A DNA stretch of 23,985 nt from a virus. Below, piece by piece: positions 2,586 through 19,467 of this stretch. Location: IMG/VR virus record IMGVR_UViG_3300031774_002667, positions 1-23,985 of that record. One strand, 5' to 3'. The notes under the pieces are model-generated. The model did no database searches. It was not told the origin of the DNA and saw only the letters and a list, made by a program, of their open reading frames with translations. Position numbers and translations under genes: made by a program. The number at the start of each line of letters is the position of its first letter. The stretch's first letter is position 1.

Positions 2586-3338
2586 ATGCTACCACTTTTT
2601 AAATCACATTATTCAATCGGTAAATCAATCTTGACCCTTGAGGAAGAAGGCTCCTCTGTCGAGGATGGCCCTCAATCAATCATCGATCTATGCAAAAAGA
2701 ATGACATGAAGGAGTTGTTTTTAGTTGACGACTCCATGAGTGGTTTTTTGCAGGGCTACCTAAACAGTGAGAAAGCAGACCTCAAGTTTAGGTTTGGCCT
2801 AAGAATTAGAATCTGTGAGGATTCAAATGAAAGAAACGAAGAGCAGAAGAAGAAAACCTCAAAAGTAATTCTGTTCGCTAAAACCAAGGAAGGGTATAAG
2901 CGGTTAATTAAAATTTATACCCAAGCAGCACAACAGGGCTTTTATCACGGGCCTAGAACCGATTACAAAACGCTTAAAGACAACTGGAGCAACAAAGACT
3001 TATCATTAATGGTGCCGTTCTACGACTCATTCTTACACCTTAACACTCTACATGGTTATATGTGTATGCCTGACCTTAGTTTTTGCGACCCAGTTTACGC
3101 GGTAGAAAACAATGACATCCCATTTAATTTTCTTATTCGCAAAAGAGTAGAAGAATTTTGCAAGCAAGATAAGTGCGTCGAAGTGAAAAGCGTTTTTTAT
3201 AACAAAAAAGAAGACTTCAAAGCTTTCTTAACATTTAGATGCATTAACAAAAGAACCACTCTCGACAAGCCAAATCTAGACCACATGACAAGTGATGAAT
3301 TTTGCTTAGAGAGCTTCCTTCAAAAAAGCTTGACCTAG
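2586..3338 (+). CDS. free-standing PHP-like N-terminal piece of DNA polymerase III alpha
   Basis: Protein of 250 aa resembling the N-terminal PHP domain of bacterial DnaE, encoded apart from the polymerase body at 4370. Similar features in order are LFKSHYSIGKSILTLEEEG at residues 4-22 (DnaE: H.H..YS...g), ELFLVDDSMSGFLQGYL (DnaE: alaitD...l.G...fy), FRFGLRIRICED (the 'iG.e' strand), KVILFAKTKEGYKRLIKIY (DnaE: li.LAkn..GY.nL..l), and AVENNDIPFNFLIRKRVEEF near 173-192. The metal-binding HxH of an active PHP is reduced to a single H (HYS), so it is probably inactive as a phosphoesterase and may be a structural or clamp-contact subunit. The final codons also hold the -35 box of the next gene's predicted promoter. 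The assignment rests on motif pattern and on the polymerase two genes downstream. Confidence 0.72.
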   Translation: MLPLFKSHYSIGKSILTLEEEGSSVEDGPQSIIDLCKKNDMKELFLVDDSMSGFLQGYLNSEKADLKFRFGLRIRICEDSNERNEEQKKKTSKVILFAKTKEGYKRLIKIYTQAAQQGFYHGPRTDYKTLKDNWSNKDLSLMVPFYDSFLHLNTLHGYMCMPDLSFCDPVYAVENNDIPFNFLIRKRVEEFCKQDKCVEVKSVFYNKKEDFKAFLTFRCINKRTTLDKPNLDHMTSDEFCLESFLQKSLT

Positions 3339-3345
3339 CATCAAG
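3329..3345. repeat. inverted repeat over the -35 box, candidate operator
   Basis: CTTGA, 7 bases, TCAAG covers the -35 box of the cupin promoter. The arm ATCAAG (3340-3345) can also pair with CTTGAT at 3357-3362, so the arms occur three times across the promoter. The same CTTGAC-N5-ATCAAG pattern with the same preceding AAAAAG lies at 10544-10567. It may be a repressor or activator site; no binding protein can be named. Confidence 0.4.
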
Positions 3346-3364
3346 TATGATATATTCTTGATAT
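3330..3364 (+). promoter_or_regulatory. sigma70-like promoter for cupin gene, predicted leaderless
   Basis: The -35 box TTGACC is at 3330-3335, followed by a 17-base spacer and -10 box TATTCT at 3353-3358. The ATG of the cupin gene is 6 bases further on, at the expected transcription start. An alternative -10, TATATT at 3351-3356, would have a 15-base spacer. The gap contains no Shine-Dalgarno-like purine run. The same geometry recurs before 6948 and 10588, which is the main support. Activity is inferred, not shown. Confidence 0.55.
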
Positions 3365-3730
3365 ATGAAGTCAGGAATGATTCAAGACGTTAAAGTGGTA
3401 GGGAAAAGCTGGGGTACAGAAGAGTGGTTCGCTAACAACGAAGCCGAAGACTATTGCGGCAAAGTCCTGACGATAGTAGAAGGCGAGTCAACCTCAATGC
3501 ACTACCACGCTGACAAGCATGAGACATTTTTTGTTTTACAAGGCTCTCTAAAGGTCGATTGGATTGACACAAAGCAAGGAGTGGTAAATACCACGATCAT
3601 CGGTTGTGGAGGCGCTATGGAAATGCCTCGTAATAGACCCCATAAATTAACAGCAAACAATGGTAATGTTAAATTAATTGAAGCGAGCACCTTTCACCGC
3701 GACGAAGATAGCTTTAGAGTATACAGATAA
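3365..3730 (+). CDS. small single-domain cupin, sugar-isomerase-like
   Basis: Protein of 121 aa with one cupin barrel. Cupin motif 1 is seen as MHYHADKHETFFVLQG, with metal ligands H46, H48 and E53; motif 2 follows as MPRNRPHKL, with H93. The opening GKSWGTEEWF and the following CGKVLTI are like the cupin domain of mannose-6-phosphate isomerase/mannose-1-phosphate guanylyltransferase-type proteins, so sugar-phosphate isomerisation or sugar binding is a reasonable guess. Single-domain cupins are functionally diverse, and a non-catalytic role is possible. It sits between the PHP piece and the exonuclease of the replicase, has its own predicted promoter, and its stop shares a base with the next start (TAATG). 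Two glycosyltransferase ORFs downstream (7469, 9372) could use a sugar supplied through this enzyme; that link is inference. Confidence 0.75.
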   Translation: MKSGMIQDVKVVGKSWGTEEWFANNEAEDYCGKVLTIVEGESTSMHYHADKHETFFVLQGSLKVDWIDTKQGVVNTTIIGCGGAMEMPRNRPHKLTANNGNVKLIEASTFHRDEDSFRVYR

Positions 3731-4368
3731 TGGACGAACATTTACTCAGATACGACAAAGAAAAGACTTACGTCTTTATTGATTGTGAGACACTAAACCT
3801 ATGCTTGAATAGCTGCCATAACCTTCCTTGGCAAATTGGCATGATCAAGGTCATTAACGGCAAGATCGTTGACCAGAAAGATATCTATATCAAATGGGAC
3901 ACTGACCTTAAAATCAGTGATGATGCCGCTAGGATCACTCGTTACGATCAGAGGAAGATTGATCGGCTTGGCGTAAAGCCAGAGGACACTTTCGGGGTTA
4001 TAGAAGAATGGTTAGACTCATGCGATTACATTGTGGGTCACAACACTCTAGGGTTCGACGTTTACTTAATTAAGGATTATTATAAATTCATGGGTAAATC
4101 CTCCGAACACTTATACCCCAAGTTTATCGATACGAATGCCATCGCAAAAGGAATTAAGATGGACATGCCATACAAAGCTGGCGAAGACCTACTAGAGTAT
4201 CAATACAAAGCCTACCACACTATAAAGAAAGGCGTTAAAACCAACCTCACCGCCTTGGGTAAAGAGTTTGAGATTGATGTTGATTACAACAACTTGCATG
4301 ATGCAGTCAACGATCTGATATTAAACATTAAAGTGTGGGACAAGCTGAAGTGGCAGATAGAAATATAA
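3730..4368 (+). CDS. DnaQ-type DEDDh 3'-5' exonuclease (proofreading subunit)
   Basis: Protein of 212 aa with all three Exo motifs of the DEDDh family. Exo I is VFIDCET (D18, E20), Exo II is IVGHNTLGFDVYLI (D110), and Exo III is HDAVNDLILN (H190, D195). These acidic residues bind the two metal ions that cleave mispaired 3' ends. It lies directly upstream of the polymerase III alpha catalytic gene, 1 base between stop and start, and probably serves as its proofreading partner like bacterial epsilon. The length is close to the catalytic core of DnaQ without the C-terminal alpha-binding tail, so how it docks to the polymerase is unclear. The start ATG overlaps the cupin stop (TAATG), so translation is probably coupled. 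Confidence 0.88.
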   Translation: MDEHLLRYDKEKTYVFIDCETLNLCLNSCHNLPWQIGMIKVINGKIVDQKDIYIKWDTDLKISDDAARITRYDQRKIDRLGVKPEDTFGVIEEWLDSCDYIVGHNTLGFDVYLIKDYYKFMGKSSEHLYPKFIDTNAIAKGIKMDMPYKAGEDLLEYQYKAYHTIKKGVKTNLTALGKEFEIDVDYNNLHDAVNDLILNIKVWDKLKWQIEI

Positions 4369-4369
4369 T

Positions 4370-6916
4370 ATGGAGAACTTTACTAAATCTTTTGTTGATT
4401 ACAATCTTGACATTCACGGCGTAAGACTGCCGCAGTTCGAGATTAGTGACGAATACAAGCAAGAAGCTGAAGCGGGTAGTGATTGCAGTAACTATGACTT
4501 TTTAAGAAAGCTGTGTCTGAATCGCTTTTCTAAGCTTGGCCTCAAGAAAGGAACGCAAAAGTACGATAAATACGTTAACAGGATTAAGTATGAGCTTGAA
4601 ACACTTAAAGACTTAGGTTTTATCGATTATGTATTGTTGGTTTGGGATGTTATTAACTTCTGCAAGATAAGTGATATCCCTGTTGGTCTTGGGCGTGGTT
4701 CTGCCGCTGGAAGCATAGTTTTATATCTTATTGGTGTTACTGGGATAGACCCGATTGAGCATGATCTATATTTTGAGAGATTCATTTCAAAAATCCGAGC
4801 CAAGAAAAAGGAAGTTGACGGGATCACTTATCTCGATGGCTCACTGATGTGTGATGTTGACTTAGACATCTGCTACTACCGTCGCCAAGAGGTTATTAAA
4901 TACCTTGATGAAAAGTTCGTTGGTAAAACATCAAAAATCTTAACCTTGAATACACTGAGCGGTAAGCTGCTCATGAAAGAGTGCGGTAAGATTGTTGCTG
5001 AAAAAAACGAAACCGAAGCAAATGAAGTCTCAAGCTTAATTCCAAAAACCTTTGGTCAAGTAATGGACATTAAACAAGCTTACGGAGAAGAGGAAAAGTT
5101 TAAAGCTTGGTGCGATGACAATAAAGAGACTTACAATATCGCCCTAAAACTCAGAAGCCTTATCAAAAATAAAGGCGTACATGCTTCGGCTATATCTCTA
5201 TCCTACGACCAGATGGAAGACACTTGCCCGTCCGAGCTTACTTCTCAAAAAGACGCGGTAGTTACATCTTATGACGCAGATTGGATTTCGATTTTTAATG
5301 TTAAACTCGACCTGCTAGGTTTACGTGGCGTGTCTGTGGTTGATGATGTTTGTAAGCAGGTTGGTATTAAAGTTACCGATATTGATTTAGATGACCCGTT
5401 TATTTACAGACAGCTACAAGACTTTAGGTCTCCTCACGGATCATTTCAGATCGAAGCTAACACCAACTTCAAGGTCTGCCAAAAGGTTAAACCGAAGAAT
5501 TTAGAAGAGCTTAGTGCGGTTCTAGCGTTGGCACGGCCAGGAGCCATGAACTTCACAGATCAGTACGCAAATTATACGAACAATGACGTGTACGAGGCTA
5601 TCCACCCCTTCTTTGATGATATCCTAAAGGAAACGGGCGGCGTGGCTTTGTACCAAGAGCAGCTAATGAAGATGGCTAATAAGATTGGCTTTACGCTTGA
5701 TGAAGCGGAAATCTTGAGGCGGATTGTTGGTAAGAAAAAACGCTCAGAGGCGCTTAAGTGGAAGAAGAAGATTAAAGACAAGATTAAAGAAAAAAGCCTT
5801 GATGAAGAGATTGGTAATATTCTCTGGCAAATCCTTGAAGACTCAGCTAATTACTCATTCAATAAGAGTCACAGTGTAAGCTATGCAGCTTTAGCAGCTA
5901 TCACAGTCTACTTGAAATTTAAATACCCGCGACAGTTCTTCCTGAGCTTGCTTAAGATGTCTCGTCACGAGCCAAGCCCAATAGAAGAGATTTCAAAAAT
6001 CCACAAAGAAATGGATTTATTTGACATTAAACTTTTACCGCCTCACTTAACAAAATCCAATATGGACTTTTCCATTGAGGGTAACGATATCCGTTTCGGA
6101 TTGCTGTCAATCAAGGGGGTGTCAGATAAGGCTGTCGAGAAAATCAACGATTTTAAGAATGAGTATTCCACAAAATTTGAGGTTTTTGCCGCCGCAAAAG
6201 AAGCGAAAGTAAATGTTGGCGTGCTTTCAGCTTTGATTCAAGCTGGAGCTCTCGAAGGATTTAAACAGTCCAGAAGCAAGGTTGTGCTTGAGGCGCAGCT
6301 TTGGAACGTGCTGCATGTCAAAGAGAAGAAATTCGCAATGAAATTTGCAGATAAGTTCAATCATGATCTTATTGAGATTGTTAAGCATCTGAAGACTTTT
6401 CAAGATGAAAAAGGTAAGATTGTTATCCCTGAATCTAGGTACGAAACCATCAAGAAGAAATACCTGCCATACAAAGAAATTTACGACTTAAACAGTAAAT
6501 CCGAATTTTTTGCTAACTGGTATTACGAAAAAATGCTCTTGGGATACACTTACAACAAAACACTCAGGGATATCTTTTCAAGTAAGAGAGAAGGGCTAAC
6601 GTCCGTTCGCAGCGTTAACGGTCTGGCAGAACGCAACAAGGTAGTTTTTATTGGCCAGATAGAAGACTGTTGGAAAGGCAAATCTAAAAACGGCAACAAG
6701 TATTACAAAATGGATGTCGCTGATGAGACTGCTACCTCAAAAGTAATGATTTTCAACGACAAGATGGATGATTGCCAGTCACTTAACAATGGGCTCCCAC
6801 AAAAGGGTCAGATTGTTATTGTGAAAGGCTCAACCGCAGATGGGGTGGTATTCGCTGATTTAATTAGCGTGCAAGACAACAAAGTATATACCAAACTTTC
6901 TGAGCTTAAAAGTTGA
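4370..6916 (+). CDS. DNA polymerase III alpha catalytic subunit lacking PHP domain
   Basis: Protein of 848 aa, a C-family polymerase. It starts where the polymerase body of DnaE begins (LPQFEISDEY) and is about 300 residues shorter than E. coli DnaE because the PHP domain is encoded separately at 2586. Catalytic features are GLGRGSAAGS at 107-115 (nucleotide binding), CDVDLDICYYRR at 161-172 with D164 and D166 matching the paired palm aspartates of E. coli DnaE (D401, D403), and VKLDLLGLRG with D314 as the third aspartate (D555). Further conserved segments are FQIEAN, ALARPGAMN, LYQEQLMKMA, ILRRIVGKKK and YSFNKSHSVSYA. An OB-fold follows at about 750-848 (VVFIGQIEDCWKG, KYYKMDVADE). No zinc or tau-binding domain is obvious. 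It works with the exonuclease at 3730. The stop codon overlaps the -35 box of the next promoter. Confidence 0.95.
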   Translation: MENFTKSFVDYNLDIHGVRLPQFEISDEYKQEAEAGSDCSNYDFLRKLCLNRFSKLGLKKGTQKYDKYVNRIKYELETLKDLGFIDYVLLVWDVINFCKISDIPVGLGRGSAAGSIVLYLIGVTGIDPIEHDLYFERFISKIRAKKKEVDGITYLDGSLMCDVDLDICYYRRQEVIKYLDEKFVGKTSKILTLNTLSGKLLMKECGKIVAEKNETEANEVSSLIPKTFGQVMDIKQAYGEEEKFKAWCDDNKETYNIALKLRSLIKNKGVHASAISLSYDQMEDTCPSELTSQKDAVVTSYDADWISIFNVKLDLLGLRGVSVVDDVCKQVGIKVTDIDLDDPFIYRQLQDFRSPHGSFQIEANTNFKVCQKVKPKNLEELSAVLALARPGAMNFTDQYANYTNNDVYEAIHPFFDDILKETGGVALYQEQLMKMANKIGFTLDEAEILRRIVGKKKRSEALKWKKKIKDKIKEKSLDEEIGNILWQILEDSANYSFNKSHSVSYAALAAITVYLKFKYPRQFFLSLLKMSRHEPSPIEEISKIHKEMDLFDIKLLPPHLTKSNMDFSIEGNDIRFGLLSIKGVSDKAVEKINDFKNEYSTKFEVFAAAKEAKVNVGVLSALIQAGALEGFKQSRSKVVLEAQLWNVLHVKEKKFAMKFADKFNHDLIEIVKHLKTFQDEKGKIVIPESRYETIKKKYLPYKEIYDLNSKSEFFANWYYEKMLLGYTYNKTLRDIFSSKREGLTSVRSVNGLAERNKVVFIGQIEDCWKGKSKNGNKYYKMDVADETATSKVMIFNDKMDDCQSLNNGLPQKGQIVIVKGSTADGVVFADLISVQDNKVYTKLSELKS

Positions 6917-6947
6917 CAAACAGCTTACAAAACCCTAATATAGTTAG
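6913..6947 (+). promoter_or_regulatory. sigma70-like promoter for ssDNA-binding gene, predicted leaderless
   Basis: A perfect -35 box TTGACA (6913-6918), a 17-base spacer and -10 box TAATAT (6936-6941) end 6 bases before the ATG at 6948, so transcription should begin at or next to the start codon. No Shine-Dalgarno sequence lies in the 31-base gap. An alternative -10, TATAGT at 6939-6944, would need a 20-base spacer. This is the best -35 match of the three. Inferred from sequence only. Confidence 0.62.
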
Positions 6948-7469
6948 ATGATTACGTTTTACAAGCCAAACGCCAAAGTGACGGGGGCTGGCTGCTCATT
7001 TTATGTAAACGACCAAGGTGAGTTTTTCGCTACTTTTATCAAGCAGAAAACTGCCCCCTCTAATGGTCGCGCTGCTTCCTTTGACCAAAACAAAAAAGCC
7101 ATCATGAAGCTAAGTCCTACTGAGATTGGCAGTTTTATCAATGCGATCTTAAGGAAGACTGAGGCCAAAGGTTATCACCAAAGCTCTAAACAGGTTGTTA
7201 CCTTTACTATGGCGGCTTCAACAGGTGAGTATGCTGGCAAATTCACTTGGCAAGCAACCTTCACAGCAAAAGATGACTCAACGAATAAATCATCATTTTT
7301 TGTAACGCTTGAATCTAGCGAAGCTATGTTGTTGCTTGAGCACTTTAGATATCTACTGCAAAAGCACTGGTCGATCACCGACAAAAAGTATGCTAATAAA
7401 AATTTCGCCAAAGAAGAAGCGAGCAGACAAAAATCTAATAAGCCTCAAGACGACGACCCAGAGTGGTAA
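6948..7469 (+). CDS. probable phage single-stranded DNA-binding protein
   Basis: Protein of 173 aa. It opens FYKPNAKVTGAGCSFYVN, followed by strands rich in aromatic and basic residues (FFATFIKQK, ASFDQNKKAIMKLS), a helix around TEIGSFINAIL, two more strands (QVVTFTMAAS, FTWQATFTAK), then NKSSFFVTLESSEAMLLLEHF. The tail is lysine/arginine-rich and ends in an acidic, aromatic tip QDDDPEW. A beta-sheet plus helix layout with an acidic tip is typical of phage ssDNA-binding proteins, where the tip recruits partners, and the pattern is reminiscent of Whirly/PC4-like folds. Its place between polymerase and recombination genes fits. It has its own strong promoter, as expected for a protein needed in large amounts. 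The family identity is a judgement from pattern; a hypothetical protein of other function cannot be excluded. Confidence 0.55.
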   Translation: MITFYKPNAKVTGAGCSFYVNDQGEFFATFIKQKTAPSNGRAASFDQNKKAIMKLSPTEIGSFINAILRKTEAKGYHQSSKQVVTFTMAASTGEYAGKFTWQATFTAKDDSTNKSSFFVTLESSEAMLLLEHFRYLLQKHWSITDKKYANKNFAKEEASRQKSNKPQDDDPEW

Positions 7470-9385
7470 TGAAAAAAAAGAAAATCCTCATTCAAACCGA
7501 CTTTGCCCTCGGTAAGACTGGCTTTGGCAGAAACGCTAAAGCCATTCTCTCTTATTTATATAAGACGGGAAAATACGATTTAGTCCACTACTGCTGCGGT
7601 ACTCCATACTCTGCAATGCAGCACAAAAAGCTTCCTTGGAAATCTGTGGGCTCACTTCCAGATGACCAAAACGAGCTAGCGAGAATTAATCAAGACCCTA
7701 ACTTAGCAAAACGCGCTTCTTACGGGGAGTATTATCTAGACAGAGTAATTAAAGAAAACGAGCCAGATGTATATATTGCCATTCAAGACATTTGGGGTAT
7801 CGACTTTGCCATTAACAAGCCTTGGTTTAATAAAATCAATTCAGTTCTTTGGACTACTTTAGATTCACTACCTATTCTGCCCAGTGCTCTTGAAGCTGCC
7901 AAGAAAACAGAAAATTTTTGGGTATGGAGTAACTTTGCGGAAAAGGAAATGAAAAAACTCGGCCAAGAACATGTTAAAACTGTTCACGGTGCTGTAGAGC
8001 CGAGCACGTTTAGAAAGCTTTCTGACAAAAAACGTCTGACTTTAAGAGCCATCAACGGCATACCTACTGCTGATTTTATCGTTGGTTTTGTTTTCCGAAA
8101 CCAACTAAGAAAAAGCGTACCAAACCTGCTTGAAGGATTTAAGCTGTTTAAAGAAAAGAACAGAGACATAAAAGCCAAACTACTACTTCACACGCATTAT
8201 GGTGAAGGGTGGGACATACCAAAACTCGCAAGAGAGTACAATATCCCAGACGAAGAAATTCTAACTACTTACGTCTGTAAAGTTTGTGGCAAATACTCTG
8301 TAAACGCTTACAGAGGTCAAGACATAGACTGTCATCGATGCAACTCTAAAAAGTCATGCACAACTACAAACGTAGGACATGGCGTGACTGAAGAGCAGCT
8401 TAATGAAGTTTATAACTTAATGGATGTGTATTGTCACCCATTTACTTCTGGTGGCCAAGAAATTCCTATTCAAGAAGCAAAACTTACTGAGTTGATCACC
8501 TTGGTGACAAACTATAGCTGCGGTGAAGAAATGTGCGAGCCAGAAGCCGCCTCACTACCTCTAAAATGGAGTGAGTACCGAGAGCATGGCACGGAGTTTA
8601 TTAAAGCTTCGACACAGCCCAACTCTATCAGTAATCAACTTACTAAAGTTCTTAAAATGAAACCCAAGCAGAAAGAGCTAATGGGTAAGCAAGCGCGACA
8701 GTGGGTGCTAGATTATTTTTCTACAGAAGCTGTTTGTGCTAAATTGGAGAATTTTATTGATAACTCAAAAACTGTAGAATACGATTTTGATTTTGAACAG
8801 CGCAAAGGTAATCCAGATTATGTAATGCCTGAAATTAAAGATGACAGCGAGTGGGTACTGCACATGTACGGAAATATCCTTAATTATGAAAACGTCGATG
8901 AAAATGATGACGGATACAAGCACTGGATGAAAGAGATTGAAAAAGGTGCGTCTAGGGAAAAAATCGAAGCGTATTTTAGGCAAGTGGCGAAACAAGAAGT
9001 TAATAAAACAGTCAAGTTTGAAGATACCTTAGACCCAGACGATAAAGGGCGCAGGATTTTGTATTGTATGCCTAAGAGCGCGGGTGATATATTTTTATCA
9101 ACAAGCTTGTTTAAATCAATAAAAGAAACTTATCCAGACCACAATTTGTACGTCGCCACTGAAGCTCAGTTTGCAGACTTGCTAAAAGGCAACGAGTATG
9201 TTCATAGGGTCATACCGTTTAACGAGCAATTTGAAAGCCATTACTTCACTGAAGGCGCGGGAGAAAACGAAGGCTTCTTTGAAATATCGTTTATCCCACA
9301 CATAACAACTCAAAAATTCCAATCTTACCAACACAACGGTAAAGATATTATCAATTACAAAGATTTAAAATATGCACATCATTGA
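7469..9385 (+). CDS. multidomain glycosyltransferase: GT4-like, DUF4214-like, N-half of GT9
   Basis: The start is taken as ATG at 7469, overlapping the previous stop (TAATG), rather than GTG at 7463; this gives 638 aa. Residues 1-435 look like a GT-B (GT4-type) glycosyltransferase: ILIQTDFALGKTGFGRNA at the N-terminus, VGFVFRNQLRKSVPNLLEGF at the start of the second Rossmann half, and GGQEIPIQEAKLTE in place of the family's E-x7-E region. A zinc-ribbon-like insert has C270, C273, C288 and C291. Residues 465-511 match the DUF4214 pattern (MYGNILNY, DGYKHWMKEIEKGASREKIE). From 527 a GT9 (heptosyltransferase-like) N-terminal half begins (ILYCMPKSAGDIFLSTSLF), but the frame ends at 638 in the middle of that domain; the other half is in the next ORF, in a different frame. 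The substrate is unknown; candidates are virion proteins, DNA bases or host surface sugars. Confidence 0.8.
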   Translation: MKKKKILIQTDFALGKTGFGRNAKAILSYLYKTGKYDLVHYCCGTPYSAMQHKKLPWKSVGSLPDDQNELARINQDPNLAKRASYGEYYLDRVIKENEPDVYIAIQDIWGIDFAINKPWFNKINSVLWTTLDSLPILPSALEAAKKTENFWVWSNFAEKEMKKLGQEHVKTVHGAVEPSTFRKLSDKKRLTLRAINGIPTADFIVGFVFRNQLRKSVPNLLEGFKLFKEKNRDIKAKLLLHTHYGEGWDIPKLAREYNIPDEEILTTYVCKVCGKYSVNAYRGQDIDCHRCNSKKSCTTTNVGHGVTEEQLNEVYNLMDVYCHPFTSGGQEIPIQEAKLTELITLVTNYSCGEEMCEPEAASLPLKWSEYREHGTEFIKASTQPNSISNQLTKVLKMKPKQKELMGKQARQWVLDYFSTEAVCAKLENFIDNSKTVEYDFDFEQRKGNPDYVMPEIKDDSEWVLHMYGNILNYENVDENDDGYKHWMKEIEKGASREKIEAYFRQVAKQEVNKTVKFEDTLDPDDKGRRILYCMPKSAGDIFLSTSLFKSIKETYPDHNLYVATEAQFADLLKGNEYVHRVIPFNEQFESHYFTEGAGENEGFFEISFIPHITTQKFQSYQHNGKDIINYKDLKYAHH

Positions 9386-10562
9386 GTCATACGCAACGCA
9401 TTGCGGCTTGAGGATCGATAAGCCTTGGATTTACCAAAGCTACTACCCAATGAGTTACAAGCACTATATCACCCTCCAACCTGCGGGTGGGGCAGATGTA
9501 CGTGATTACGGTTACTGGGATGAAGTGATTCAGTATATTCAGCCTGAACTAGAAAAACGCCAAATCAAAATTGTCCAACTTGGGACAGAAAAAGACCGCG
9601 CAATCCCTGGCTGCATTCACACTCAAGGCTCTACTGAGCTTTCTCAAGTGTCATACTTAATTAATGGATCGATGCTTCATCTAGGGGTGGACAGTATTGG
9701 TATCCACATGGCTTCAGCTTACGACAAAAAGATTGTTGGCTTGTACTGTAATCAGTGGACTAGATCGAGTGGTCCTTATTGGTCTAACACAAAAGACGTA
9801 ATCCTGCACGAGCCAAACAGAAACGGCATCAAGCCGAGCTTTTCCTTACAGGAAGACCCTAAAACAATCAACGAAATTTCAGCAGAAAAGGTAGCTCAAT
9901 CTGTTTTCGATCTACTTGGTATCGATGCTAAAATCCCTTACGAAAGAGTTCATGTTGGAAAAAACTATAATGACATTAATGTTCAAAATGTTCCAACCTC
10001 AGTCGCTAGAATAAATGAGCAGCAACTCGCAAACCATCCACTTATTGTAAGGATGGATATAGACCACAATGAAGAAGTTTTAGAAGAGCAGCTAAAACAG
10101 TGCGTGTGCGTTGTTTGCTCGACCAAACCAATTGATAAAAACATAATTATGAATTATAAACCAAGAATACAAAACTTTGTTTATTACTTGGATGATAATC
10201 ATGATAAAGAGTTTGTTGAGTTTCTTCGTAGTAATGCCGTGTCTCATAGCTTACTAACTAGAGATGGCGACGAGAAACTTGAAAAACTAAAGCTGGAATA
10301 TTTAGACTACGGTTTTATTTTTCGCAAATACATTGACGAAGAAGGCATCGCAACGCTCAAAGACCAAGACCTTTCTAAGTACATGTTCAAAACTAGGAAA
10401 AAAATACTAAAAGGCGGCGAATGCTACAATAGCGTTTCAAACCTAACAGCAGAAAGACCTATGGCGTCTGTAAATGATTTTTCTTTTACTGAAATAGTAG
10501 ATAACCCAGAATTTTGGGATTTTTTGGACGAAACTTATATTGTCAAAAAGCTTGACTCTTAA
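9372..10562 (+). CDS. GT9-like glycosyltransferase C-terminal half plus unknown domain
   Basis: Protein of 396 aa, beginning at ATG 9372 inside the end of the previous gene (14-base overlap, +1 frame). Residues 1-185 continue the heptosyltransferase-type GT9 domain started upstream: HIIESYATHCGL, then ITLQPAGGADVRDY, IKIVQLGTEKD, LSQVSYLINGSMLHLGVDS (donor-binding half) and IHMASAYDKKIVGLY. A complete GT9 needs both halves, so this protein must either pair with the upstream product or be fused to it by frameshifting. Residues about 200-396 form a second, unrecognised domain with alternating charged helices and strands (HPLIVRMDID, QLKQCVCVVC, IQNFVYYLDD). No Shine-Dalgarno sequence stands before 9372, so initiation would rely on coupling. 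The last codons contain the -35 box of the next promoter. Confidence 0.72.
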   Translation: MHIIESYATHCGLRIDKPWIYQSYYPMSYKHYITLQPAGGADVRDYGYWDEVIQYIQPELEKRQIKIVQLGTEKDRAIPGCIHTQGSTELSQVSYLINGSMLHLGVDSIGIHMASAYDKKIVGLYCNQWTRSSGPYWSNTKDVILHEPNRNGIKPSFSLQEDPKTINEISAEKVAQSVFDLLGIDAKIPYERVHVGKNYNDINVQNVPTSVARINEQQLANHPLIVRMDIDHNEEVLEEQLKQCVCVVCSTKPIDKNIIMNYKPRIQNFVYYLDDNHDKEFVEFLRSNAVSHSLLTRDGDEKLEKLKLEYLDYGFIFRKYIDEEGIATLKDQDLSKYMFKTRKKILKGGECYNSVSNLTAERPMASVNDFSFTEIVDNPEFWDFLDETYIVKKLDS

Positions 10563-10567
10563 TCAAG
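10551..10567. repeat. inverted repeat over the -35 box, second copy of candidate operator
   Basis: CTTGA, 7 bases, TCAAG; written in full it is CTTGAC-N5-ATCAAG, as at 3329-3345, and both copies are preceded by AAAAAG. In both places it overlaps the -35 box at the same register. The ssDNA-binding gene promoter at 6913 does not have the right-hand arm. Too short a stem for a terminator. Confidence 0.4.
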
Positions 10568-10587
10568 GGTAGTCTAAACTTGTATCC
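10552..10587 (+). promoter_or_regulatory. sigma70-like promoter for Rad52-like gene, predicted leaderless
   Basis: The -35 box TTGACT (10552-10557), a 17-base spacer and -10 box TAAACT (10575-10580) are followed by 7 bases and then the ATG at 10588. An AAGGG run at 10565-10569 is too far from the ATG (18 bases) to serve as a ribosome binding site. The geometry is the same as before 3365 and 6948. Inferred from sequence only. Confidence 0.55.
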
Positions 10588-11337
10588 ATGACTAAGAAAG
10601 CAAACGCATTAGTTCGCACCAAGAGAGACGAAGACGGACTAATAACTGAACCAAAAGTTGAGTATTCATTTGACGAAAACGGTTTCATTGATTGGCGTAA
10701 AATGCTTAACGATGAATGGCTTTACCCCAACCCAACTAAGTATCCCGCGTCAGCAGATATTTCTAAATTAAAAGACAGTGATCTTTGTGTTCTGTTGCAG
10801 GGATACAAAGACATTGCTCAAATTCGAGGCTATACTGACGTAACTTATGATATAATCTCACCTAGCGCAGACTATGTGGTTGCAACTTGCTCGATCACTT
10901 GGAAGCCTAACTACGAGACAGAAAATGAGGCAGTTATTTTTTCTGCGATTGGTGACGCTTCACCCGCAAATACAAATGGGTTTGGCGCTCTCTATCTTGG
11001 ACCTATGGCTGAAAATAGAGCTTTTGTTCGTTGCGTTAGAAACTTTTTGAAGATCGGCATTGTTGGTCGTGATGAGCTTGCTGGGAACGGAAGCCCAACA
11101 TCAAAAGTCGCTACTGCGCGACAAGCCTCCGTGTCTACGGAAAGCGGGGTATCAACCGCCAACCCTCACGTAGTCCTTTCATCGCTAATGGGCGAGAAAG
11201 GTGTGACATTTGAAGCTTTAGTAAAAAGATTAAAAGACGAAGGTTATAACAAAGCAGACAAGATCGCTAGGGTTGAGCAGATTCCTAAGATTAAAACTTT
11301 TGAACTTATCGAAAGAATCAAGTCAATTAAGACTTAG
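10588..11337 (+). CDS. Rad52-like single-strand annealing protein
   Basis: Protein of 249 aa. Residues 60-165 match the pattern of Rad52-superfamily phage annealing proteins. This includes KLKDSDLCVLLQGYKDIAQI and RGYTDVTYDI (helix then strand), ATCSITWKP and IFSAIGDASPANTN (sheet), and MAENRAFVRCVRNFLKIGIV (long basic helix that lines the DNA groove). The C-terminal quarter (about 190-249) is a separate small helical, lysine-rich segment after a Ser/Thr-rich linker. Such proteins coat ssDNA and anneal complementary strands; with the RecB-type nuclease at 1579 this would make a Red-like recombination pair. Its own predicted promoter precedes it. The gene ends in an 11-base overlap with the convergent gene on the other strand, and no hairpin terminator is seen there. 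The superfamily call is by pattern and the exact subfamily is uncertain. Confidence 0.68.
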   Translation: MTKKANALVRTKRDEDGLITEPKVEYSFDENGFIDWRKMLNDEWLYPNPTKYPASADISKLKDSDLCVLLQGYKDIAQIRGYTDVTYDIISPSADYVVATCSITWKPNYETENEAVIFSAIGDASPANTNGFGALYLGPMAENRAFVRCVRNFLKIGIVGRDELAGNGSPTSKVATARQASVSTESGVSTANPHVVLSSLMGEKGVTFEALVKRLKDEGYNKADKIARVEQIPKIKTFELIERIKSIKT

Positions 11338-14191: not shown

Positions 14192-15596
14192 ATCTGTCTA
14201 CATTTAGTGTTCCGCTTCCTAAAGTATGAAGCCCCAAAGCTGTTGTGAACGACCCGCTTTCATGCCTTAAGACGTATGACCCAGCATCAATTATCCCAGA
14301 CCAAGCATCTGAAACATACGGGAAGAAAGTTACCTTCCCGTATTTCTGTTCACCATTTTCAAATTTCAAACAAGAGACATCTAGCGTTGTTAAATACCCA
14401 GTACAGCTAGACTGTAAGGTGGCTACAAATTGAGTTATAGAGCTTGCTGCTGGTGATATTTCTCCAGTTGTATTATATATCTTCCTGTTTCTGTCAAAAG
14501 TAACTTGAATCGATGTTTCTGGACAAGTGGTAGTTACATTTGCTCCAGTATAGTTACCGCTAATTTGCGGATTGTAACCAACATAGTATCGCTTACTTAC
14601 GTAACCAGTTGCGCCTTGGTAGTAAGCTGACCCATTGTAACCGCTAAACGTAGTAGAATAGCTGGTTGTGTTATTGTTTATATTGTAAGATGTTGAGGCG
14701 CTGTTTAACTCGTCTATCACCACGCCGCTTGCATTAAAGTGAGATAGCAGTGGTGTTAGGTCGGTCAAAGCATTAGAAAGGCTAGTGCCTGTAGCAATTA
14801 TAGCCCCTAAAGAAAACTGACCAGTTTCAACGCCAGTCGCTTGAGTATATGAGACTGTTGTAAAGTTTCCATATTTGCCTGACTGCGTTGAGTTTGTTGT
14901 GTTAATTAAAGTATTTAATTGCCCTGAAAACGCCGTAGATTGGTTACACGAAGCACTACTACTACTTGTAACGCTGCTGCTCGTTGCGCTGCTTGAGGTT
15001 GGGCCAGTTGAACTGCTTGTCGTGCTGCTACTGGTGGCGCTACTTGAACTTGGGCCAGTTGAACTACTTGTCGCGCTACTGCTCGTCGCGCTGCTTGAAG
15101 TTGCTCCCGTGGGTGGTCCTGTATAATCGCCTGAAGTACATCCTTCTCCGCTTGTATCAGCAAAATTAAAATAATTCTCTCCATAGTCATACGAGGTGGA
15201 TGCTACTGCAAAAGCGTGAATCAATGGAGCGCCGTTAGCATAGCCAGAAGGTTGCCCAGAAAACATTATGCCTACATTAACCTTCGTAGAGGCCCCAGCT
15301 TGACCTGGCGTTCCATAGTAAAAAACACCACTAGCTTCTCCTAATTGCACTCCAGTGCTGTTGTATGCGTCGTCAGTGTGTGAAAAGCCTAATCGATAAT
15401 TAGCGTTTGAAGAGTCACTTTGGTCAAACTTATAAACCTTACCAGCGATATCTCCGCTACAATCATTACGCCATCGTAATGTAAATGATGGATTATGCTC
15501 CCAGCCATCACTAAAAGAGCCGCTATACTCAAATTTATCCTGACCGTAGCCGTTGTCAGCAATTCTTACTAAAATTGTTTCGTGTGGGTCAGGCAT
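14184..15596 (-). CDS. virion protein with serine-rich repeat linker between two beta domains
   Basis: Protein of 470 aa, function not recognised. Residues 1-150 form a beta-rich domain (FEYSGSFSDGWEHNPSFTLR, VYKFDQSDSSNANYRLGF). Residues 162-215 are an almost pure Ser/Ala/Thr linker with two STGP units, encoded by 51-bp tandem repeats. Residues 216-470 form a second beta-rich domain with many Tyr, Asn, Ser and Gly (NNNTTSYSTTFSGYNG, YYVGYNPQISGNYTG) and a C-terminal part SYVLRHESGSFTTALG. Cysteines at the linker edges (GCTSGDYTG and SASCNQST) could frame the two folded parts. The linker resembles flexible, often O-glycosylated stalks. It is translationally coupled to its neighbours (1-base gap upstream, 8-base overlap downstream) inside the fibre operon, so a fibre or adhesin component is likely. 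No domain name can be given. Confidence 0.55.
   Translation of the reverse strand: MPDPHETILVRIADNGYGQDKFEYSGSFSDGWEHNPSFTLRWRNDCSGDIAGKVYKFDQSDSSNANYRLGFSHTDDAYNSTGVQLGEASGVFYYGTPGQAGASTKVNVGIMFSGQPSGYANGAPLIHAFAVASTSYDYGENYFNFADTSGEGCTSGDYTGPPTGATSSSATSSSATSSSTGPSSSSATSSSTTSSSTGPTSSSATSSSVTSSSSASCNQSTAFSGQLNTLINTTNSTQSGKYGNFTTVSYTQATGVETGQFSLGAIIATGTSLSNALTDLTPLLSHFNASGVVIDELNSASTSYNINNNTTSYSTTFSGYNGSAYYQGATGYVSKRYYVGYNPQISGNYTGANVTTTCPETSIQVTFDRNRKIYNTTGEISPAASSITQFVATLQSSCTGYLTTLDVSCLKFENGEQKYGKVTFFPYVSDAWSGIIDAGSYVLRHESGSFTTALGLHTLGSGTLNVDRYV
14965..15103. repeat. 51-bp in-frame tandem repeat encoding Ser-rich linker
   Basis: Two full 51-base units (14989-15039 and 15040-15090) are flanked by a partial unit on each side (14965-14988 and 15091-15103). 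On the minus strand each encodes 17 residues of the type ATSSS(A/T)TSSSTGP(S/T)SSS. The two full copies differ at several, mostly synonymous, positions, so the array is not recent, but its period keeps frame if copies are gained or lost. Confidence 0.85.
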
Positions 15597-17853: not shown

Positions 17854-18872
17854 TAGGGTATATCTATTTGCGGGCCGACTGTTAGGCTAGATGAAGACAC
17901 TTCCCCATAAGGCGTAACAACTTTTACTGGGCCGCTTTGCGCGAACCTTGGTACTTTTACTTTTATTTGTGTCGAGCTTCTTTCTGTGAATTCGTTGGTC
18001 CGAATTGTGTTATTAAAATAGACCGCAGTTGCTTGATCTAAATTATCGCCCACAATAGTTAAATCTGCGAGAGTAGAAACTGGGCTTGGGCTTGTGCTGG
18101 TTATTGTTGGCTCCGAGCCATATCCATTCTCTTCAATGTTTAAAGTAGAAATGACCTTCTCTCCAAAGTTGATTGATATGTCTTTACTTTGAAGTACACC
18201 CTTAACGCTCCAAAGCGTTGACTGTCCTCTTATGCCTATGTCAACACTGATCTCTTTACCCGTGTGAGGTATCGCTTCAAGAATGTTGTAAGTATCCAAA
18301 GATAAGCTTTTTACTTTTTCTCCGTATCTATGCTCAACTGGCGCAATTCCACTTATATTATACAGCGGCGTAAAATTGTGAGACTCATCATAGGATACTG
18401 AGGCTACTTTGCTTGTAACATCCATACCCTGAAGGGTAATCGTCAAATCTGACATTTTATACCAATCCCAGTCTTGATCTGGTAAGATTGCTGGAGAGAA
18501 TGTGCCTTGTAAGTCTTCGTAAAAATTAAACGAGGTATTTACCTGTAAAATCCCGTGAGGGCTGGCACTCCAGCTATACTGATTAAGGTAGCCAGACTGA
18601 ATTGTTGTACCCCCCACGTCTATGCTGAAGACGTTTTGGCCTGGCTTCGCATTGGGCATGTAAAAGGGGTCGCCACTGTTGGCGTCCACGTAGTAATTCA
18701 AGCTAAGAGTACCATTAAGACCATTTGTGGCTACATAGTTGTCTCCGCCAGCACGATTAATACGGGTAGATTTAGTGAGTTCGTTAGAAAACGACAAAGA
18801 AGCAGAATTAGCCAAAATTCCACTACCATTCACCTTTAGGCTGATATTATTATAATTATAGTAATCTGCCAT
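17853..18872 (-). CDS. tail protein: two tube-like beta domains plus C-terminal IPT/TIG
   Basis: Protein of 339 aa, first gene of the inverted operon. Residues 1-130 (ISLKVNGSGILANSASLSFS, NELTKSTRINRAGGDNYV, GTLSLNYYVD) and residues 140-248 (SDLTITLQGMDVTSKVASVS, then EKVKSLSLDTYNILEA and ISVDIGIRG) look like two successive beta-sandwich domains in the style of tail tube or distal tail proteins. In both, an opening strand is followed by an 'I.S.s.sf..e' strand. Residues 254-335 are an IPT/TIG domain (PVSTLADLTIVGDNLDQATA, VYFNN, KVKVPRFAQSGPV). A tube-like protein with a C-terminal Ig domain recalls lambda gpV, but the double tube-like part suggests an adaptor to which the following fibre proteins attach. 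The start at 18872 is preceded by AAGG-containing sequence suitable for ribosome binding. The fold assignment is tentative. Confidence 0.5.
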   Translation of the reverse strand: MADYYNYNNISLKVNGSGILANSASLSFSNELTKSTRINRAGGDNYVATNGLNGTLSLNYYVDANSGDPFYMPNAKPGQNVFSIDVGGTTIQSGYLNQYSWSASPHGILQVNTSFNFYEDLQGTFSPAILPDQDWDWYKMSDLTITLQGMDVTSKVASVSYDESHNFTPLYNISGIAPVEHRYGEKVKSLSLDTYNILEAIPHTGKEISVDIGIRGQSTLWSVKGVLQSKDISINFGEKVISTLNIEENGYGSEPTITSTSPSPVSTLADLTIVGDNLDQATAVYFNNTIRTNEFTERSSTQIKVKVPRFAQSGPVKVVTPYGEVSSSSLTVGPQIDIP

Positions 18873-18960
18873 TACCCTTATACCTTTATCCTACATATTT
18901 ACACCAAGATTTTTTATTTTTTATCGCTAAAACGTGTAAAATAAGGTAAGGAAAAAGGAT
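18873..18960. promoter_or_regulatory. divergent regulatory region between fibre operon and tail-tip operon
   Basis: This 88-bp AT-rich region drives transcription both ways. Rightward, GTGTAAAATA at 18934-18943 contains a good -10 (TAAAAT, 18937-18942), and AAGGA at 18948-18952 lies 8 bases before the ATG at 18961. Leftward, the complement of 18895-18904 reads GTGTAAATAT, a similar element 32 bases before the start at 18872, followed by AAGG runs near the start codon. No convincing -35 boxes are seen, and a T-rich stretch (18911-18922) lies between the two elements. Unlike the three early promoters, both sides leave room for a short leader with a Shine-Dalgarno sequence. Promoter function is inferred. 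Confidence 0.4.
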
Positions 18961-19467
18961 ATGGGTTCTATATATGAAATATCAAGCTGGTCTGGGGGTA
19001 CAGCTTCGAAAAATGAAGTTTATCTTCATAATAGCAATCACTTCTATAGTTTAGAGAGCTCAAACACTCAAACACCATCTGTGGGCGCATCAAAGTGGGG
19101 CGGTATGACTACTTTTGACAATAAAGAAGTCCCTCATTTCTTTTGGATTCCCAGCTACTCGCCAACGATCTCAACCGAACCATCTGTTAGAACTCTCAAG
19201 TTCGGAGATGGGTACGAGCAAAGAACCCCAGACGGTATTAACACAAATCTTCTCAAAATCTCTCTAACCTACGATAACAGAGACGAAGCTGAAAGTACGG
19301 CAATCGCTCATTTTTTAAACGAAAGAGGCGGTTCTGAAGCTTTTGTATATTTGCCGCCCTCTCCTTATTCCTCAATGAAAAAGTTTATTTGTAGAAAATG
19401 GGATGTTACGATGAATTTCGATAACAATTACTCCATTAAAGTAGACCTAGAAGAAGTAGTGGAATAA
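18961..19467 (+). CDS. minor tail protein M-like with N-terminal carbohydrate-binding-like module
   Basis: Protein of 168 aa. Residues 56-168 match the lambda gpM (Phage_min_tail) family: FFWIPSYSP, then VRTLKFGDGYEQRTPDGIN (73-95 region), AHFLNERGGSEAFVYLPP, FICRKWDV and the closing strand SIKVDLEEV. M is needed to build the tail tip between the tape measure and L/J. The N-terminal 50 residues are extra: W10 and W46 frame a short module with W.SG...(K)NEVYL..S.HFYSL....TPS...WGG, resembling the small chitin-binding CBM5/12 fold. The start ATG has AAGGA 8 bases upstream and is the first gene after the divergent promoter region. The tape-measure gene that usually precedes M is not here; the inverted fibre operon takes that place. 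Confidence 0.82.
   Translation: MGSIYEISSWSGGTASKNEVYLHNSNHFYSLESSNTQTPSVGASKWGGMTTFDNKEVPHFFWIPSYSPTISTEPSVRTLKFGDGYEQRTPDGINTNLLKISLTYDNRDEAESTAIAHFLNERGGSEAFVYLPPSPYSSMKKFICRKWDVTMNFDNNYSIKVDLEEVVE

Follow-up and report, generated by a model that had tools for sequence, protein, structure and literature searches.

In a large group of uncultured phages, the ATG codons that open the early replication and repair operons should, as judged from the sequences, lie at the expected start of transcription. It is very probable that these operons have sigma-70 promoters with the +1 at or near the ATG and are leaderless, and that the late genes form a separate class with Shine-Dalgarno leaders; several of the early promoters in the window's close clade probably also belong to one regulon. 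Early and late are used here as classes assigned from gene content alone.

The window, by which we mean the whole stretch of DNA analyzed, is a full IMG/VR record of 23,985 bases. It is a tailed-phage fragment in which a rightward replication block is followed by structural genes. On the + strand the block comprises, in order, part of a helicase gene, a primase, a nuclease, a PHP domain, a cupin, an exonuclease and DNA polymerase III alpha (lacking the PHP domain), then an ssb-like gene, two glycosyltransferase genes and a rad52-like gene. The polymerase is thus split, with PHP as a separate gene at 2586-3338, the remainder at 4370-6916, and the cupin and proofreading exonuclease genes in between. 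Among the structural genes, a predicted structural protein on the - strand contains a serine/threonine-rich low-complexity repeat, SSSATSSSTGPSSS, at 14934-15120. A nucleotide search of GenBank phages with the window gave no matches, a protein search of the same phages gave none for the ssb-like and rad52-like proteins, and the polymerase found distant matches only; we therefore recognize no cultured relative or known host. A search of a genome collection returned 8 contigs with polymerase identities of 26-52%, and in the 5 that were examined a different gene follows the polymerase and the promoter is absent.

The putative promoters of the replication block and the genes that they precede are as follows.

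3330..3335, + strand: cupin promoter -35, TTGACC, directly abutting the PHP-gene stop TAG at 3336-3338
3353..3358, + strand: cupin promoter -10, TATTCT, spacer 17
3365..3730, + strand: cupin gene, 121 aa, predicted leaderless, ATG at the expected +1
6913..6918, + strand: ssb-like promoter -35, TTGACA, with the polymerase stop TGA (6914-6916) inside it
6936..6941, + strand: ssb-like promoter -10, TAATAT, spacer 17
6948..7469, + strand: predicted Whirly-fold single-strand-binding-like gene, 173 aa, predicted leaderless
10552..10557, + strand: rad52-like promoter -35, TTGACT, within the 3' end of a glycosyltransferase gene
10575..10580, + strand: rad52-like promoter -10, TAAACT, spacer 17
10588..11337, + strand: rad52-like gene (a tentative Rad52 assignment), 249 aa, predicted leaderless

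An initial annotation of this DNA had pointed out that these are the only genes in the rightward block with a gap before them, and had placed a promoter in each gap at a fixed distance from the start codon. Both observations proved exact. The three gaps measure 26, 31 and 25 nt, and all other genes overlap or abut. From the start of the -35 to the ATG there are 35 nt for cupin (ATG at 3365), 35 nt for ssb-like (6948) and 36 nt for rad52-like (10588), and from the end of the -10 there are 6, 6 and 7 nt. The hexamers match the sigma-70 consensus at 9, 10 and 9 of 12 positions with a spacer of 17. As had also been described, all three genes start with ATG and none has an upstream Shine-Dalgarno sequence. 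In-frame stops lie close upstream: a TAG immediately precedes the ssb-like ATG, a TGA stands two codons ahead of the cupin ATG, and a TAG six codons ahead of the rad52-like ATG. No ATG, GTG or TTG occurs between these stops and the three ATGs. Thus, the three ORFs cannot start earlier.

A search of the window for TTGAC-N17-19-TANNNT-N5-8-ATG found three matches on the + strand, exactly at the cupin, ssb-like and rad52-like genes, and none on the - strand; the reversed pattern gave none. In 300 first-order Markov simulations of the window, scored on both strands, matches with the 6-7 spacing numbered 0.1 on average and 1 at most. Promoter-like hexamers could in principle fall into line by chance in A+T-rich DNA, and their total in the window is indeed the shuffled expectation: a generic sigma-70 scan gave 41 matches against 42 expected, with no overall excess. 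Since the generic scan shows no excess, what is special is the position relative to the ATG, which departs strongly from chance expectation both in the window and across the clade.

If these are host-type (sigma-70) promoters, the expected +1 would be the A of the ATG or lie within 0-4 nt of it. The phage's own transcript would then be leaderless and would be translated by initiation at a 5'-terminal AUG, and the overlapping or abutting genes downstream in the operon would be reached through translational coupling. Such an arrangement would be the rule for early replication and recombination operons of the lineage, with each gap squeezed to one core promoter that fills the space from the upstream stop, often located in TTGACA, to the ATG. 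The morphogenesis genes, classed as late, have another motif, TGTAAANT, followed by a Shine-Dalgarno sequence in a short leader.

Viral contigs were searched with the rad52-like and polymerase queries, which gave 16 and 80 loci, and 74 non-redundant loci (1.39 Mb) were left when overlapping or near-identical ones had been dropped. Across these loci, whose counts are not independent owing to shared ancestry, ATG-initiated ORFs follow the -10 at a distance of 6 nt in 113 cases, 7 in 30, 8 in 33, 9 in 24 and 10 in 14, with almost none at other distances. Permuted and reversed motifs gave 0 at distance 6. The permuted -10 control gave 12 at distance 7, and these are probably real promoters one base out of register. 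A plausible-start filter, which uses the upstream stop and is intended to remove false internal ATGs, left 191 ATG-initiated ORFs at 6-10 nt against 37 at 11-79 nt, and 1 in reversed sequence. The whole-genome comparison with shuffled controls that the initial annotation had proposed is thus strongly positive when run on the relatives, and the permuted and reversed motifs are without a peak. In lambda, HTVC010P, A118, TP901-1 and phi11 combined, 0 of 26 motif matches lie at 6-10 nt. About four fifths of the assignable promoters in the clade are predicted to be leaderless.

The geometry is kept before these genes even where their proteins are just 30-40% identical between phages. In aligned relatives the spacer positions vary while the motif and the ATG are fixed, and the spacer sequences of these related phages are unrelated, which argues for selection on the geometry itself. 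This conservation refutes chance alignment, an explanation that we reject with next to no reservation, and it supports the interpretation of these elements as leaderless promoters, in which the transcription start itself is a prediction.

By gene, the promoter was found before ssb-like in 62 loci, rad52-like in 56, DnaB helicase in 37, PHP in 19 and cupin in 3. The set had been proposed for the three window genes; those three stand, and the promoters serve more, namely helicase, PHP, a 174-aa gene and a small early gene. The exonuclease was considered as a served gene and rejected, its 22 matches being an internal in-frame ATG in a conserved protein stretch. The cupin promoter is restricted to near relatives of the window; elsewhere no gap separates the cupin start from the gene upstream, which it abuts or overlaps. 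In L004 (31,734 nt, near-identical to the window) further promoters of this kind precede the helicase gene (10009), the 174-aa gene (8306) and a small gene with a GTG start (6837), with weak -10 elements at the latter two. Every gapped protein gene in the L004 early block fits the predicted leaderless spacing, the tmRNA region aside. The small early gene apparently has GTG at leaderless spacing in two phages.

In nearly all relatives the ssb-like promoter reads TTGAC(A), about 17 nt, TANNNT, 6-9 nt, ATG. A promoter is present in 63 of 64 polymerase-ssb pairs, with gaps mostly of 31-33 nt, and in 59 of 64 glycosyltransferase-rad52 pairs. In 47 of the 64 polymerase-ssb pairs the polymerase stop TGA falls within the TTGACA of the ssb promoter, and the gap is thus a single core promoter. 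This economy is what genome compaction alone would give, the ATG reaching +1 through packing and leaderless initiation being a tolerated by-product without regulatory meaning. Gaps are only promoter-sized, with a stop codon so often inside the -35, and most other genes overlap. Compaction leaves unexplained, however, why the ssb-like gene starts with ATG in 64 of 64 cases when the next gene uses ATG, GTG and TTG in 25, 18 and 20. In L014, moreover, the ssb promoter is kept further upstream with a longer leader containing AAGGAAAAAGAT, a natural contrast which indicates that a leader can be added; and late genes of the same phages retain leaders with Shine-Dalgarno sequences in 88-nt gaps. We regard compaction alone as a serious possibility, though on balance not the favored one.

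The leaderless reading could also be wrong in degree, if transcripts start a few nucleotides upstream, or if read-through operon mRNA is the main template and leaderless translation is minor. Distances of 8-10 nt are common in the ssb and helicase genes of many relatives, and helicase promoters mostly have 9-10 nt between the -10 and the ATG, for which the usual rule predicts a leader of 3-4 nt. Against this, the modal distance is 6, a read-through RNA would have no Shine-Dalgarno sequence to use, and ribosomes would halt at the upstream TGA some 30 nt from the ATG. Such an arrangement seems improbable to us.

Late genes of the same phages look different, and in the window two divergent late-type sites lie between 18873 and 18960.

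18935..18942, + strand: late-type motif TGTAAAAT, 18 nt before the ATG at 18961; an SD-like leader, AAGGAAAAAGGAT, follows
18895..18903, - strand: late-type motif TGTAAATAT, divergent from the first and lying upstream of a leftward tail gene that begins at 18872

In these phages, late genes have TGTAAANT exactly 18 nt before the ATG, together with GAGGTAAAAGG or AAGGAAAAAGG. Shine-Dalgarno matches of at least 5 nt precede 92% (23/25) of the late starts with TGTAAANT; the figure is 8% for ssb-like starts and 0% for rad52-like ones.

Two of the three early promoters in the window are overlain by an inverted repeat that is a candidate operator.

3329..3345, + strand: CTTGA-N7-TCAAG, candidate operator overlying the cupin promoter -35
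3357..3361, + strand: third half-site CTTGA, which follows TCAAG after N11 and covers the end of the cupin -10
10551..10567, + strand: CTTGA-N7-TCAAG, candidate operator overlying the rad52-like promoter -35
10579..10582, + strand: third half-site CTTG, N11 after TCAAG, rad52-like promoter

In the close clade the dyad, or a one-base variant of it, covers the -35 of the helicase, cupin, rad52-like and 174-aa gene promoters, often with a third CTTG 11 nt beyond it, where the -10 ends. The window's phage lacks the dyad at its ssb promoter. There are 17 dyads in 350 kb (appearing as 34 rows, as palindromes are counted on both strands), against 0-1 for spacings of 5, 6, 8, 9 and 10. Within the close clade, every exact tripartite match sits at such a promoter. 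Across all viral contigs there are 82 stretches with the exact tripartite pattern, and contigs with more than one belong to this clade only. The dyad is probably an operator that binds a regulator, which would join several early promoters, though not that of ssb, into one regulon. Alternatively, the dyad could be a by-product of TTGAC and of related promoter ancestry. The phages compared are kin, the ssb promoter lacks the element, contigs outside the clade never have more than one exact tripartite match, and no helix-turn-helix domain or recognizable regulator was found among the ten proteins scanned. Within one phage, however, the dyad recurs at unrelated genes with different spacers, its N7 spacing far outnumbers the others, and the C at position 5 of the -10 deviates from TATAAT, thereby preserving CTTG. 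We consider the by-product explanation unlikely. Inside the nuclease gene, at about 2428-2460, four phages have in common the dyad-like sequence CTTGAC-N6-TCAAG-N11-CTAG, which may be an internal operator or may reflect codon conservation.

The identities of the products were also re-examined. Cupin holds (Cupin_2, E 8e-10). The protein at 6948-7469, previously called an ssDNA-binding protein, is better described as a predicted Whirly-fold, single-strand-binding-like protein: it matches plant WHY1-3 and trypanosome MRP (Foldseek E 9e-7, TM ~0.6), and its best relative matches Pfam Whirly at E 8e-6. Whirly proteins have been described as plant-specific (PMC9070903). For the protein at 10588-11337, previously called Rad52-like, no Pfam or PHROG family was found, and the best fold match of a low-confidence model is human RAD52 at E 0.06; this hints at Rad52 weakly, and we treat it as a conserved protein of unproven class.

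A longer contig of the same phage encodes a one-piece tmRNA (L108:8834-9236) in the early block, about 1.6 kb upstream of the window; tmRNAs are also present in L110, L113 and L114 (Rfam E 1e-45 to 1e-51). ARAGORN detects the tmRNA in three of these four phages, and one predicted tag, ANNVDMAPSLDEADAILAKFGWAEEAAVAA, is unusually long. No similar phage record was found in GenBank. Upstream of the early block, L108:1-6806 carries putative genes of nucleotide-sugar/polysaccharide type, by eye epimerase-, aminotransferase- and formyltransferase-like.

In lambda, cI is expressed from PRM, a sigma-70-type promoter with the +1 at the A of the AUG, no Shine-Dalgarno sequence and an operator overlapping the promoter. 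The early promoters described here resemble it in type, in the predicted +1 at the AUG, in lacking a Shine-Dalgarno sequence and in the candidate operator over the promoter; lambda cI, however, is one repressor gene in one phage, whereas here replication and recombination operons are involved across a lineage. In the leaderless genes of Actinobacteria and Deinococcus, the start codon follows closely on the -10 element. Those are host genes, and GUG is also efficient in mycobacteria, whereas here the genes are viral, the -35 is strong, the start is nearly always ATG and Shine-Dalgarno sequences are retained for late genes. As in the two-class programs of lytic phages (host-type early, phage-modified late), early promoters are sigma-70-like and late motifs TGTAAANT-like, but here the classes, temporal by gene content, differ in the design of the translation start too.

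According to a review that mentions the leaderless lambda cI mRNA (PMC9031893), mRNAs of this kind are seldom found in enterobacteria and are frequent in Mycobacterium and Deinococcus, and E. coli shows a strong preference for AUG. In Actinobacteria and Deinococcus, start codons at or near the mRNA 5' end without a Shine-Dalgarno sequence are common (PMC9031893, PMC4633059), and one phage paper remarks in passing that phage transcripts are often leaderless (PMC5312081). Our searches of the literature found no paper dealing with this lineage or with leaderless starts used in a class-specific way. Among the matches listed for sampled viral contigs, roughly 10-35 promoter motifs per 0.6-1.1 Mb lie 6-10 nt before an ATG without a Shine-Dalgarno sequence, and most promoters lie farther from the ATG, often with one, the commonest bin in the larger samples being 26-35 nt. 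These samples served for profiles within each sample, the IMG/VR-wide counts of consensus promoters at 6, 16 or 25 nt all being lower bounds. Leaderless spacing is thus a minority mode for viral promoters generally and the dominant one in this clade. The suggestion that the window promoters represent a notable new strategy needs narrowing, as leaderless phage mRNAs are known and random viral contigs also show a 6-10 nt peak; what is new, on the sequence evidence, is the near-exclusive and promoter-class-specific use of the predicted leaderless spacing.

It is conceivable, if less than probable, that the lineage runs two translation-initiation programs divided by promoter class, a regulated and almost wholly leaderless early regulon and late operons with Shine-Dalgarno leaders. 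If so, early and late genes could differ in their response when ribosomes and initiation factors change in the course of infection; at least four of these phages carry their own tmRNA. Leaderless initiation tends to be regarded as an oddity or as something peculiar to particular hosts; this widespread phage group would offer a natural system in which to ask why a virus picks leaderless or Shine-Dalgarno starts. It also supplies a practical rule by which promoters and start codons can be called in these phages from metagenomes.
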